Shown here: positions 52,784-57,095 of the stretch, piece after piece
How the letters are laid out: each line of letters starts with the position of its first letter
Numbering within the stretch: position 1 is the stretch's first letter
NCBI RefSeq assembly: GCF_000021945.1
Contig: NC_011831.1
Coordinates: 3,485,353 to 3,549,352 of the forward strand
Direction: 5' to 3'
DNA length: 64,000 nt
Source of the DNA: Chloroflexus aggregans DSM 9485
GTDB taxonomy: Bacteria; Chloroflexota; Chloroflexia; Chloroflexales; Chloroflexaceae
Position numbers and translations under genes: made by a program
Notes under the pieces: model-generated
What the model was told of the DNA's origin: nothing
Database searches by the model: none
What the model saw: only the letters and a program-made list of their open reading frames with translations

Positions 52784-52869
52784 GGGCATCCTGCCGAGGA
52801 GGGTACATGGCGGTGTGCCCTACGACGGGGGGCGCTTTGCACCCTCTGCTTCGTTGCGTGTGTATGCGC

Positions 52870-53184
52870 GAGCCGCACCGGTGGGGCGGTTGGGCGAGCC
52901 GCACCGGTGGGGGGTGGGCGAGCCGCACCGGTGGGGCGGTTGGGCGAGCCGCACCGGTGGGGGGTGGGCGAGCCGCACCGGTGGGGCGGTTGGGCGAGCC
53001 GCACCGGTGGGGGGTGGGCGAGCCGCACCGGTGGGGGGTGGGTGAGCCGCACCGGTGGGGGGTGGGCGAGCCGCACCGGTGGGGGGTGGGTGAGCCGCAC
53101 CGGTGGGGGGTGGGTGAGCCGCACCGGTGGGGGGTGGGTGAGCCGCACCGGTGGGGGGTGGGTGAGCCGCACTGCCGTGCGGCT
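52870..53184. repeat. G-rich tandem repeat array 3 (about 13 units of 24-26 bp)
   Basis: The unit is GAGCCGCACCGGTGGGG followed by GGTGGGC or CGGTTGGGC, 24 or 26 bp, repeated about 13 times head to tail. The last copy changes into a hairpin AGCCGCAC-tgcc-GTGCGGCT (53165-53184). The two lengths mix in the first half; the second half is uniformly 24 bp. It lies between the convergent thioesterase and BTAD-protein genes. There are no unique spacers, so it is not a CRISPR. The 52784-52869 flank holds no gene. Confidence 0.93.
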
Positions 53185-53194
53185 TTACTTTGTG

Positions 53195-54190
53195 TTATTG
53201 GATCAATTCGTGATAGAGCTTCACCACCGGATCGTCGCGTTTGCGGCGAGGGTTGATCCCGGTGACGGTCAGGTAGCGTTGATAGGCACGTTGCATCTCG
53301 ATCGGTAGGCCAAGCCGGTGGTTTGCCCGCAACAGCCAACTGACGACGGACGCAGCCCTTGGCTCCAGGGTGAGAATGCGCTGACAGTATTGAATGCACT
53401 GTTGGTCATTGCCGTTGGCAAATGCATCTGCGGCTAATCGCTCGCCGGCAATGACGGTCTTACTCAAGAGGTTCGCTGCCCGTTCGGCAGCCCACCGCTG
53501 CGCACCGGCAACCCCTTCCATATACGGACCATCGTACAAGTCGAACACATATTGCAAAAAGGGAATGGCAGCGCTCAGGCCTTGTTCGGTGATGGTTTGC
53601 ATTGCTAGCTCGAAGGTATGTTCAAGCAGATCGGCGTCGCTTCGGTAGAGGTCGGAGTTGAGCATACAGCGCTGCCGGTCGGTAATGAGGAGTTGGTTGG
53701 CAAGCGTTTCACCGCCAACCTGCTGGAGCACTTGGCGTAATGCAGTAAGGGTACGGGCAAGGCTGCTGGCGCTGGCTTCGCTATCCCACACTGCCGATGC
53801 AATTTCGCGACGGGAAGCACCACGGGCGCCCCAGTGGACGAGGTAGGCGAAGATGCCTTGCACTTTGCGTCCACCCGCACGCCCAGTTTCACTTTGACCC
53901 CATTCCTCAGCTTTGATCATCCGGCTATCGATGAACACTTGAAACTCGCCAAGACAGTGGACGTACACGCCACGGAAAGGGCGTAGTTCGATGCGCAGAC
54001 CACTGATCTCGCTGATGTGGCGTAGCGCTATCTGTGCTTGTTCACTAAGCTCAGGATCGTCGAGCAGACGACGTAAGTACGTGAGGGCACGGTTGCCGTA
54101 ATGGGTCAGGAGAATGGTCGTAGCTTGCCGACGAACCAGCGGGTCGGCATGGGTCAATAATGGCAGATAGAGCGTGACTGGATTCGACAT
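53195..54190 (-). CDS. HEAT-repeat / winged-helix / BTAD regulator-like protein
   Basis: This 331-residue protein starts with HEAT-like helices (about 5-65: LLTHADPLVRRQATTILLTHYG, ALTYLRRLLDDPELSEQAQIALRHI). Then comes a winged-helix DNA-binding-like region (about 78-180: VHCLGEFQVFIDSRMI, KVQGIFAYLVHWGARGASRREIASAVWDSEASASSLARTLTALRQVL) and a bacterial transcriptional activator (BTAD) tetratricopeptide domain (about 190-330). This resembles SARP-type regulators, but with HEAT in front. It starts 4 nt after the stop of the degenerate-helicase gene on the same strand, so the two form one operon. Confidence 0.82.
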   Translation of the reverse strand: MSNPVTLYLPLLTHADPLVRRQATTILLTHYGNRALTYLRRLLDDPELSEQAQIALRHISEISGLRIELRPFRGVYVHCLGEFQVFIDSRMIKAEEWGQSETGRAGGRKVQGIFAYLVHWGARGASRREIASAVWDSEASASSLARTLTALRQVLQQVGGETLANQLLITDRQRCMLNSDLYRSDADLLEHTFELAMQTITEQGLSAAIPFLQYVFDLYDGPYMEGVAGAQRWAAERAANLLSKTVIAGERLAADAFANGNDQQCIQYCQRILTLEPRAASVVSWLLRANHRLGLPIEMQRAYQRYLTVTGINPRRKRDDPVVKLYHELIQ

Positions 54191-54194
54191 ACCG

Positions 54195-56936
54195 CTACTC
54201 TTCTACCCTATCATGACGCTCTTCAGGAGGAAGGCGACGTACAACACTGACAGACGGATCGATCCGTAGTTCGCCGTGTTCATCGAAGTCGACGATCAAG
54301 ATTTCGCGGTCGCCGTTCACCAGGCTAAGACGGACTTTGCCTGCACCATATGGCATACAGATGATGCGTTCACCAGGGTGAAAGCGCGGTTCAAAGGTTG
54401 AATTACCGGAAGCCGGCGCCTCGCTACGGCGCGGTGTTTCCGTTTCGAGGCGTGAACGCCTTTGGCGCAGGCGGGCCAAGATGGCTTCAGCATCAGGTAC
54501 GGTTGGCTCTTCGCTTGGCGCTGCGGGTGGTGTTTCCGGCTCAACCCGTGTTAGCGATTGTGGTTGGTGAGCATTGGAACGCGGTGGTACCCGGTCAGGT
54601 GGACGGCTGTGTCGGTTGCGGGTGTGGCCGGTAGCGCGATTTGGACGCAGTGGTTCAGCACGCACCGGTGGGTCGGGTGTGCGCGTCGGCGGGTCGGGCG
54701 TGTGCGTTGGCGGGTCAGATGCACGTGTCGGCGGGTTGGGCGCGTGTATCGGTGGGTCAGGCGTGCGCGTTGGCGGGTCAGATGCACGTGTTGGCGGGTC
54801 GGGCGTGTGCGTCGGCGGGTCGGATGCACGTGTTGGCGGGTCGGGCGTGCGCGTCGGCGGGTTAGTAGAGCGTGTTGGGGAAGATTGTGCCCATGGCGGG
54901 AGGGCAATGGTCATATCAACCTCGCCGCCCAACACGGCCAACAACCAATCCATATCGGCACGGGCAAGCGGCTCAAACAGCGGGTCAAGTCGTTGATCGA
55001 GGGCAATGTCGTAGGCGAGCGGCAATATCGTCTCTAACTGCTCGTAGAGCCATGCCGCAAGACCATTGCCATTCGGTTGGGCATCGATCAGATAAAGATA
55101 GTTATTGTCTGGATCGTAAGCCGGAACACAATCTTCCAAACGGGCTAACGTCTGCACTGCAATCGCTGCTGCACACGACCAACCGACTAACTGACCGGTC
55201 ACATTCAGGGGACGATTGAGCTGAATCCAAACCGCCGGACTATACCATTGGGATGTGAACGGTTCCGATAATGTCCGTTCTTGCACGGTATTGCGACTAT
55301 TGTACTCGCGGTAGGCGTAGGTTGTCTCTTCAATCATCACACGCCCCCAAGCCAGCCGTGGTCCATGACCACTCTGTTTACGTCGTAGCTCACGCTGACC
55401 CCATTCATTGTGGATGTGTACGCGACAGCGACGTAGGGGAACGGTACGCCGACCGCTGTCGGCAACAAGCTGTACGGTGGCCTGCTCTTCATCCCAAGCA
55501 ATTACTCGCTGATCGCCGCGTAGTGGAGGGAGCGCAGCCCCGACAAACGCCCAGCGCCCCGCGATTGAAGGATCAGCAGTACCGATCGGTTGTCCTTGCT
55601 CATCAAGGAGAAAGAGTGGATCGGTACCGGCAGCGTGCAGATCGAGCGGGATGTAGGGGTCAATCTGCGTGCCCGGTAGCCAGAGCGGTGGCTGATGAGG
55701 GAGGCGTTGGAGATAGCGGCGTGCTTCCAGCCGTTCGACCGTCGGGGTGAGTTGCCATTGCTGTATTTCTTGCTGGCGCAGTGGTTGTTCGTTAGCGGCG
55801 CAGACCAAATGCAGTGCGGTCACGAATGAGTTGGTCGGCGCCGGTGGCCAGACAGGAGGCTGAAGCAAAGGCCACGTTGCCAGATCGGTCACTGCGAGTC
55901 GTTGCAGGGCCGGCTCGCTGATTCCACGTCCAAGGAGCAGGATCACCAGCATCGCTTCACTGCTCAAGGCAGCAGAAAGCTGTACGGTGCCGTTGTCAGC
56001 ACCGGTGACGATCTGCACGTGGGCCGGTAACGGGGTGGTCCCAACACTCAGTGCATCCTTGGCAAATGCTCGCAGGGTACCGATCTCAAACCGGTTCGCA
56101 ACCAGACGAACGTTTGCACCGGCAGTGACAAGAGCGTCGGCTAACCGCATAATCTCGCGTTGACGGTCGCCATCGCTCTGCCAGAGCGCGAGGGTCGTTG
56201 CCGGATGGGGCAAATCGGCGACTGGGGTGATTCGCCATTCTTGACCGCTGAGCAGTTGCAAAGCAGTTTCGGCGCCGCTCACCGGAGCCACCGAGCCGCC
56301 TAACAAAGGGGGGTGCGGGGCCAACCGTGTAGCGCGCAATAATGCCATACTAAGGTGGCCGGCAGCTATGCCATAGTACGTGTGCAGATCGGGAATGGCG
56401 ATCATCCGAAGGCGTGACCAAAAATAACGCCAGGCGCGGTCGTGAAAGCGGAGGAGCGAGCTGTGTAGTTCTGGTAGCGTAGTGATGACGAGGCGGGAAG
56501 TCGGCGCTATCCGGCGGTTGGAGCCATTGGTAGCCGTGATGGCGATGGGCGGACGAAGAGAATGGGCTAGTGCCGTAGCTTCGCGCTCGTGGAGGAGTGC
56601 TTGATCGGGATCGGCGGCAATGAGCAGCGCTGTTGCCGATGGTTCGTGATGGAGTAGGTCAAGTACCAGCAGGTGCAGACTCGCGCGACTAAGCATGCCG
56701 GTGCCGGTGATCGCGAAAGCGGTTCCGCGGCGGAGGGCGGCGAGCGCAGTGGATTGGGCTTGAAAGAACGGTAAGCCGACTACATCTAACCATGCATCTT
56801 TCAGCGCCGGGGCGATCGTGAGATGGCTAATCCGCACACCGGCCCGGCCAGGCACGTGGTGCAGCGCGATCAGGGGCGATGGTTTTCGTCCAGATCGTTC
56901 GGCCAGCATCTGCAAGATTTCGATAAAGTCGCTCAT
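54195..56936 (-). CDS. MrfA/YprA-like helicase-family protein with degenerate motor motifs
   Basis: This 913-residue protein follows the plan of MrfA/YprA helicases. The Q-motif region is FFQAQSTALAALRRG; the Walker A position (78-86) reads GTGMLSRAS, without the GKT/GKS lysine; the Walker B position (about 181-186) reads IPDLHTYY in place of IDEVHTYR. LVITTLPELHSSLLR also aligns by eye. The middle has the family's FLLDEQGQPIGTADPS and MIEETTYAYREY blocks; the C-terminal DUF1998-like part (LYLIDAQPNGNGLAAWLYE) lacks the cysteine cluster. A DPPTR-rich repeat linker (about 690-760) and a Tudor/KOW-like domain (FHPGERIICMPYGAGKVR, about 850-905) follow. ATG 56936 has no ribosome-binding site, but TATAGT lies just upstream, suggesting a nearly leaderless mRNA. 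Confidence 0.75.
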   Translation of the reverse strand: MSDFIEILQMLAERSGRKPSPLIALHHVPGRAGVRISHLTIAPALKDAWLDVVGLPFFQAQSTALAALRRGTAFAITGTGMLSRASLHLLVLDLLHHEPSATALLIAADPDQALLHEREATALAHSLRPPIAITATNGSNRRIAPTSRLVITTLPELHSSLLRFHDRAWRYFWSRLRMIAIPDLHTYYGIAAGHLSMALLRATRLAPHPPLLGGSVAPVSGAETALQLLSGQEWRITPVADLPHPATTLALWQSDGDRQREIMRLADALVTAGANVRLVANRFEIGTLRAFAKDALSVGTTPLPAHVQIVTGADNGTVQLSAALSSEAMLVILLLGRGISEPALQRLAVTDLATWPLLQPPVWPPAPTNSFVTALHLVCAANEQPLRQQEIQQWQLTPTVERLEARRYLQRLPHQPPLWLPGTQIDPYIPLDLHAAGTDPLFLLDEQGQPIGTADPSIAGRWAFVGAALPPLRGDQRVIAWDEEQATVQLVADSGRRTVPLRRCRVHIHNEWGQRELRRKQSGHGPRLAWGRVMIEETTYAYREYNSRNTVQERTLSEPFTSQWYSPAVWIQLNRPLNVTGQLVGWSCAAAIAVQTLARLEDCVPAYDPDNNYLYLIDAQPNGNGLAAWLYEQLETILPLAYDIALDQRLDPLFEPLARADMDWLLAVLGGEVDMTIALPPWAQSSPTRSTNPPTRTPDPPTRASDPPTHTPDPPTRASDPPTRTPDPPIHAPNPPTRASDPPTHTPDPPTRTPDPPVRAEPLRPNRATGHTRNRHSRPPDRVPPRSNAHQPQSLTRVEPETPPAAPSEEPTVPDAEAILARLRQRRSRLETETPRRSEAPASGNSTFEPRFHPGERIICMPYGAGKVRLSLVNGDREILIVDFDEHGELRIDPSVSVVRRLPPEERHDRVEE
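54660..54875. repeat. Coding minisatellite in the degenerate-helicase gene
   Basis: About nine in-frame copies of a unit of about 24 bp (minus-strand protein unit close to TRTPDPP or TRASDPP) encode the proline-rich linker. The plus strand reads as variants of GGCGGGTCGGGCGTGTGCGTC and GGCGGGTCAGATGCACGTGTC. The two variants alternate, giving a higher-order period. The repeat keeps the frame and is likely to vary in copy number. Confidence 0.8.
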
Positions 56937-57095
56937 CGCCACAAACTATATATGCGGTCCAATGGCTTGCCAACGATTGACCGAAGCGCAATGCCCTTCC
57001 GTCAACCTGTCAATATGGTGATTGTAGCATGCCTGTCGACCATCCATCAGCAGCGTGGTATACTCCTGTCGGTTCTGCCTGGTGAGGGATATTCT

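Follow-up and report, generated by a model that had tools for sequence, protein, structure and literature searches.

A Predicted MrfA/YprA-Derived Pseudo-Helicase with a C-Terminal Tudor Domain in the Order of Chloroflexus

The Locus and Its Domain Layout

The 64,000-nucleotide stretch of the Chloroflexus aggregans DSM 9485 genome analyzed here (NC_011831.1, positions 3,485,353 to 3,549,352; hereafter the window) carries on its reverse strand (−) a coding sequence for a predicted MrfA/YprA-derived pseudo-helicase with a C-terminal Tudor domain. The longest open reading frame (ORF), at 54195–56942 (−), starts with GTG and encodes 915 amino acids (aa); from the ATG at 56936 (−) to its end at 54195, the ORF encodes 913 aa. 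We prefer this ATG over the GTG at 56942 because close relatives begin at the MSD that it opens. An earlier reading of the letters alone, without database searches (the sequence-only reading), had placed the gene at 54195–56936, in agreement with this start. Residue numbers below are those of the 915-aa frame; numbering from the ATG is lower by two.

Nine features can be placed along the gene, all on the reverse strand. A RecA1-like domain extends to residue 257 (56172–56936), as defined by the profile alignment with MrfA (41–257) and by a match to TIGR03817 at residues 59–257 (E 4e-22, below cut-off). According to the alignment with intact relatives, the Walker A position within it reads GTGMLSRAS, with no lysine (residues 80–88, 56679–56705), and the motif II position reads PDLH in place of DExH (residues 184–187, 56382–56393). 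Profile and alignment then delimit a shortened RecA2-like remnant that has lost motifs V and VI (55848–56171), followed by a WHD_HRQ1-like winged-helix region (55701–55838) and by an MZB-like region, which keeps a PGGxG block without the zinc cysteines (54993–55142). The ORF translation, the relatives, and a repeat scan define a repetitive proline/arginine-rich linker whose length varies among relatives (54501–54872). It is rich in DPPTR, covers approximately residues 691–814, and is accompanied by 21-, 42-, and 63-base repeats at 54666–54878. A conserved short helix, PDAEAILARLRQRRSR, recognized by family conservation and helical in a low-confidence model, precedes the Tudor domain (54423–54500). 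The Tudor domain, very probably of PcrA/UvrD type according to profile searches and hhalign, closes the protein (residues 842–905, 54228–54419). Some relatives are longer: homologues L040, L042, and L043, of family f2, have open frames of 1299, 1561, and 1301 aa, versus 915 aa in the window.

Homology to MrfA/YprA

Compared with the PDB as a single sequence, the window protein matches MrfA/YprA with an E value of 3.5e-5. A profile of 30 homologues matches MrfA (PDB 6znp) at E 7.3e-44 in two blocks, and no other match falls under 0.2. In Pfam, the single sequence matches WHD_HRQ1 (E 7e-4) and MZB (E 0.037), both under the gathering scores; at E ≤ 0.1, 29 of the 30 family members match WHD_HRQ1 and 27 match MZB. 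The NCBIfam model TIGR03817 (DECH_helic) gives 78.2 bits with the window protein, and its curated cut-off of 874.1 is not reached. The profile match to MrfA and the member-wise matches to WHD_HRQ1 and MZB therefore indicate homology over RecA1, the second half of RecA2, the winged helix, and the MZB region. Judged by these profiles, the homology to MrfA is far above chance and spans most of the length of the ORF.

The protein thus shares with MrfA/YprA the RecA1 domain, a remnant of RecA2, the HRQ1-type winged helix, and the MZB-like region, in the same order. It differs from it as a pseudo-helicase without Walker A, Walker B, motifs III, V, and VI, and the zinc cysteines, with a shortened RecA2 and with an added linker and Tudor domain. 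MrfA also has an exonuclease partner, MrfB.

Loss of the Motor Motifs and of the Zinc Site

Motif columns were counted in an alignment of Chloroflexota proteins: 53 homologues and 16 intact relatives, the latter at least 700 aa long. In every one of the 16 intact relatives, motif I reads SGK[TS]. None of the 52 readable homologues has the Walker A lysine (one of the 53 rows is gapped there), and GK[ST] is absent within 12 columns of motif I from all 53 rows. The loss of this motif is not wholly exception-free: in a neighboring register, a single row (L013) has RKT close to it. The aspartate of motif II occurs in 0/53 homologues, and motifs I and II are both kept in 16/16 intact relatives. Motifs III and V are also lost from the aligned homologues. 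In motif VI, the column of the first arginine is gapped in all 53 rows and that of the second in 52, the remaining row having F. The part of RecA2 between the two aligned blocks measures about 95 residues in MrfA versus about 45 in the pseudo-helicase family, half of the start of RecA2 being gone.

The cysteines of the zinc site are missing as well. Behind the PGGxG block, the intact relatives carry a cysteine cluster, C-x-C-x2-G-C-P-x-C in 14 and with a longer spacing in two, which is absent behind the retained block of the window protein. Read by script, only one of the 53 homologues (L039) has a cysteine pair within 90 residues from the PGG block. The intact set has 92 near-invariant columns; 29 of these, motif residues among them, survive in three or fewer of the 53 homologues, and 35 survive in the majority. 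Conversely, among the columns conserved at ≥90% in the pseudo-helicases, 27 are common to the intact set and 31 are not so shared. The columns common to both sets are concentrated in the winged helix and in the PGGxG block, a pattern suggesting that the fold was held and the engine was not. Within the core, invariant residues are densest in the winged-helix region (N371, A382, A383, E385, and P387).

A second sample of 20 further regions, fetched after the first motif counts, gave the same picture. None of the eight proteins from within the order of Chloroflexus has SGK[ST] at motif I, a DExH, or the cysteine cluster; a GKS in one of them (L142) lies at residue 679, outside motif I. Seven of the eight carry the C-terminal signature described below, which L145 (804 aa) does not show. 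The 12 other regions come from the same class but from outside the order. The longest frame of one (L135) is another gene, and the 11 readable homologues all have SGKT, DExH, and the cysteine cluster, and none has the signature.

Almost certainly, then, on the strength of these alignments, the protein is a pseudo-helicase of MrfA/YprA descent, without the residues for ATP binding, hydrolysis, and the arginine finger and without the zinc site. At the level of sequence it is a descendant of MrfA that fails the defining tests of MrfA, and probably a scaffold with no engine. The sequence-only reading had recognized the domain order and several blocks of MrfA/YprA, had suggested a profile comparison with this family, and had called attention to the lysine-free GTGMLSRAS, to PDLH in place of DEVH, and to the missing cysteine cluster. 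The profile match and the comparison with the intact relatives bear out each of these points, and add to them the loss of motifs III, V, and VI and the shortening of RecA2. It had also asked whether orthologues share the losses: intact motifs occur in none of the 53 aligned and eight later homologues of the order. Its view of a conserved pseudo-helicase is therefore supported, at this level, by the strong match to MrfA and by the lack of intact motifs in every homologue of the order examined.

Distribution and Purifying Selection

The pseudo-helicase is matched in 60 of 61 genomes (that of the window and 60 relatives), in 45/45 good assemblies, and in 28 of 29 genera. On the contigs as they stand, only the tail is matched in two genomes (G016 and G023), and the tail and a weakly matching core in a third (G035). 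In a search of the class, 79 of the 82 genomes of the order have a match at E ≤ 1e-20 and 74 at E ≤ 1e-100; the three genomes without a match at E ≤ 1e-20 are 60–76% complete. Outside the order, none of 76 genomes reaches E ≤ 1e-100 and 18 match at all, the best at 3.3e-35, in the manner of MrfA. These class counts rest on the assumption that the 41 genomes neither listed nor matched belong elsewhere than in the order, the list running by kinship. In a sample of the phylum, 127 of 201 genomes match at E ≤ 1e-10, and among the matches listed every one from outside the order is partial. In a tree built from 40 family rows and 16 intact relatives, the family falls to one side of a branch supported at 100/100; because the tree is unrooted, it favors but does not compel the view that the family is a single clade.

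Frames are open in the great majority of genomes, across four families. The ratio of nonsynonymous to synonymous substitution rates (dN/dS, by a Nei–Gojobori script) ranges from 0.032 to 0.226 in 13 pairs (one with dS near 1.5), which represent three of the four families; a pair of intact MrfA gives 0.132. For the window copy compared with six congeners, dN/dS is 0.12–0.15 in five comparisons, in which dS is near saturation (1.45–1.81), and the sixth, with saturated dS, gives no value. A few draft assemblies contain broken or split copies (G022 has it in three frames, and stops are flagged in G018 and G036). Judged by these rates and counts, the pseudo-helicase is kept by purifying selection and is near-universal in the order holding Chloroflexus.

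MrfA-type helicases are patchy in the order by comparison with the near-universal pseudo-helicase: at E ≤ 1e-30 they occur in 15 of the same 61 genomes, 10 of the 45 good ones, and none of the eight of the genus. A 1698-aa frame in the genome of the window (L103, in the region 3155000–3165000) shows a partial match to TIGR03817 (E 1.9e-28).

The C-Terminal Tudor Domain

A tail of at least 55 residues follows the linker and the short conserved helix in 41 of the 53 homologues, and several others stop at contig ends. Its consensus is RFxxGDRIxCLPYGxGxVxxSRxxDGRExLxVxFPxxGELxIDPxVSxVR. We built a tail profile from 36 of these 41 tails. It matches 11 PDB sequences at E ≤ 10, nine of them of CarD or PcrA/UvrD type and all weak (0.0046 to 0.6). 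Taken singly at E ≤ 5, eight of the 36 tails match Pfam PcrA_UvrD_tudor (best E 0.0021), six CarD_TRCF_RID, and two DUF3553. In the 4.68-Mb genome of the window, the sole other significant match of the tail profile is the Tudor domain of the genome's own PcrA (E 1.2e-5), and PF21196 points to the same place. This PcrA matches TIGR01073 (pcrA) at E 3e-257, though under the cut-off. Aligned by hhalign with 19 PF21196 Tudors of the order, the tail scores 96.9% (E 1.4e-10), and 100 column-shuffled controls remain at or below 6.0%. The profile match to the genome's own PcrA and the hhalign result place the tail with the PcrA/UvrD Tudors, and descent from these is very probable on profile grounds.

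We also considered an RNA polymerase interaction domain (RID) of CarD/Mfd type as the nearest kin of the tail, which has a weak profile resemblance to it (CarD type, E 0.0046–0.05). It ranks behind PcrA/UvrD on the own-genome scores and by hhalign, although the CarD type heads the PDB matches. The tail profile scores 22.0 bits with the genome's own PcrA and −1.0 bits with its own Mfd as single sequences. By hhalign, one stretch of this Mfd gives 34.5%, which makes no fair pair with 96.9% because Mfd is a single sequence and PcrA/UvrD a profile of 19.

The sequence-only reading had proposed both the DPPTR-rich linker and a Tudor/KOW-like C-terminal domain. Both are real; the Tudor is visible by profile, and the window's own tail taken alone has no Pfam match at E ≤ 5. 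Like the Tudor of PcrA/UvrD (an RNA polymerase interaction domain, PDB 5dma), this homologous domain stands at the extreme C-terminus after a long, poorly conserved linker, as described for PcrA in part of PMC5397179. Unlike it, it is joined here to a superfamily 2 (SF2) pseudo-helicase and not to an active superfamily 1 (SF1) helicase, and the positions of H681 and K712 are not kept.

Candidate Docking Partners

The accounts of Bacillus and Geobacillus PcrA consulted in part describe a Tudor domain on a long disordered linker that binds a TGE-tipped hairpin of RpoB and the same motif in UvrB (PMC8318588, PMC5397179). With the pattern of this helicase interaction motif taken from PMC8318588, the strict form occurs once in the genome's own RpoB (VDPNTGELI) and once in its own UvrB (LDPLTGEVL), and is found neither in its own PcrA nor in the part of Mfd read. 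In RpoB (L127), VDPNTGELI lies at about residue 609, in an apparent insert before YLSADEED.

The lysine described in these sources as critical for the binding of RNA polymerase is K712 in Geobacillus and K727 in Bacillus (PMC5397179, PMC8318588). We placed the register of the PcrA contact residues in the 36 tails by hand. The aromatic position of W684 is Y, H, W, or F in all 36, and the position of L714 is I, V, or L in all 36. The PcrAs of the order mostly have K at the position of K712, and the genome's own PcrA has R. The PcrA/UvrD-type docking domain suggests that the partner is a protein, either RNA polymerase or UvrB; the sequence-only reading names neither.

Gene Neighborhood and Other Features of the Window

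Four bases downstream of the pseudo-helicase gene lies a gene for a protein with a HEAT-like match (below cut-off) and a BTAD domain (53195–54190, −), which adjoins it only within the genus. Of the seven genus loci examined, it occupies this place in the five with sequence there (L001 and L054–L057), the contigs ending in L005 and L007; at the remaining loci, blastp at E ≤ 1e-8 did not detect it. The other downstream neighbors, which we take by eye from their sequences to be an enoyl-CoA hydratase, a carboxylase, an inositol-phosphatase-like protein, and others, change from one family to the next, so that no operon logic can be transferred. Many loci of the family have a divergent upstream gene, presumably an alpha/beta-hydrolase judging from its sequence, which probably reflects plain synteny.

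Two further features of the window were observed. A 24-base tandem repeat (52868–53172; 12.5 copies, 95% match) lies between two convergent genes, and several of the long ORFs listed for the window are translations of it. The segment 26001–28000 has a G+C content of 0.70 and a GC skew of 0.27, versus about 0.56 and 0.06–0.11 in its flanks.

A Proposed Tethered Adaptor and Its Rivals

We propose that the pseudo-helicase acts as a tethered adaptor in transcription-linked DNA repair or in the handling of R-loops. The Tudor domain, on a long and probably flexible linker, would dock the protein on RNA polymerase, or on UvrB with the same docking motif. The dead core would retain a fold centered on the winged helix and the MZB-like block, and would bind nucleic acid or a repair protein without ATP. 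For this reading as a whole, in which the protein is tethered to RNA polymerase or UvrB as an adaptor independent of ATP, we put the probability at roughly one half, the tether being the step that we infer. Nucleic-acid binding by the core is on balance probable, and the structural DNA- or RNA-binding role suggested by the sequence-only reading is plausible. Docking on RNA polymerase or UvrB is a reasoned guess by analogy, a little short of even odds, and not a result, because the PcrA lysine is replaced and the position of the histidine is a cysteine. A fuller scenario is tentative: an ancient copy of MrfA may have shed its motor, acquired the Tudor that PcrA carries in the same lineage, and come to be more widespread in the order than MrfA, as an ATP-free transcription-repair adaptor that rides on RNA polymerase or UvrB and senses damaged or displaced nucleic acid.

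Several observations weigh against the adaptor. The K712 position is L, I, or V in 36/36 tails, and the H681 position is an invariant C (36/36). The motif in RpoB lies in an apparent insert, a candidate sequence insertion 1 (SI1) at most, and would serve PcrA anyway. The best of the weak PDB matches of the tail is CarD (E 0.0046). The gene neighbors are not common beyond the genus and give no hint of repair or transcription. Models of the core and the Tudor, made from alignments of four and three rows (the window protein and close relatives), reached a predicted local distance difference test score (pLDDT) of 37.2 and 55.5; Foldseek with the Tudor model gave 168 matches at E ≤ 10 and none at E ≤ 0.001. 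We draw no inference from these results.

The replaced contact residues could instead reflect a Tudor that binds a different partner, such as a ribosomal or RNA-processing protein, in a role outside transcription and repair. The C and L/I/V at the two positions stand within a new C-x-P-[YHWF]-G signature, and the 31 core columns conserved at ≥90% in the pseudo-helicases and not so shared with the intact set would fit such a change of function. This explanation is possible though doubtful: the nearest profile domains are the Tudors of PcrA/UvrD and CarD, and the W684 position has remained aromatic in every tail.

A regulatory or dominant-negative pairing with intact MrfA is improbable. The two proteins belong to the same fold family and coexist in some genomes of the order, but 60 of 61 genomes have the pseudo-helicase, MrfA-type helicases occur in 15 of the 61 and in no genome of the genus, and the pseudo-helicase can thus hardly work through MrfA; the distribution mostly refutes this pairing. 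We regard a cryptic ATPase built on unconventional residues, for which the RKT of L013 might be cited, as very improbable, since the loss takes in motifs I, II, III, V, and VI at once and the segment of the arginine finger is deleted. Equally improbable is a component of an anti-phage system, such as many relatives of YprA belong to. Homologues of YprA are central to DISARM, Dpd, Druantia, and ARMADA, according to the sections consulted of a survey of the family (PMC12458937); the gene considered here is near-universal in the order and shares no neighbors beyond the genus, and a PADLOC search gave no match for a defense system. Finally, a decaying gene on its way out, as the loss of all motor motifs and the few broken or split draft copies might suggest, has the slimmest chance of all, refuted by dN/dS values of 0.03–0.23 with open frames across four families.

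Relation to Known Systems and Significance

Few bacterial pseudo-helicases were found in the literature searched, and we found no report, in the open-licence literature, of an MrfA-derived pseudo-helicase or of this Chloroflexota protein. Utp25 of the yeast small-subunit processome, a helicase-like protein, was reportedly named a pseudo-helicase by its authors (PMC9539457); it belongs to eukaryotic ribosome assembly. Another parallel is PriA of Deinococcus radiodurans, likewise a bacterial repair helicase that lost its ATPase and unwinding activities in one lineage, and which is described in the part of the report consulted as a pseudo-helicase that kept DNA binding and contact with a partner (PMC4504706). 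It belongs to another family, and it retained a known partner, DnaB, whereas a docking domain was gained here. The survey of the YprA family speaks of inactivated nuclease domains in YprA proteins, and the sections consulted do not mention a motorless YprA helicase (PMC12458937).

The protein described here is a pseudo-helicase that is near-universal in its order and commoner there than its active relative, with a motor lost and a docking domain gained whose partners are known elsewhere. If a dead SF2 core carrying this Tudor binds RNA polymerase or UvrB, this would suggest that the PcrA/UvrD Tudor is a portable module.

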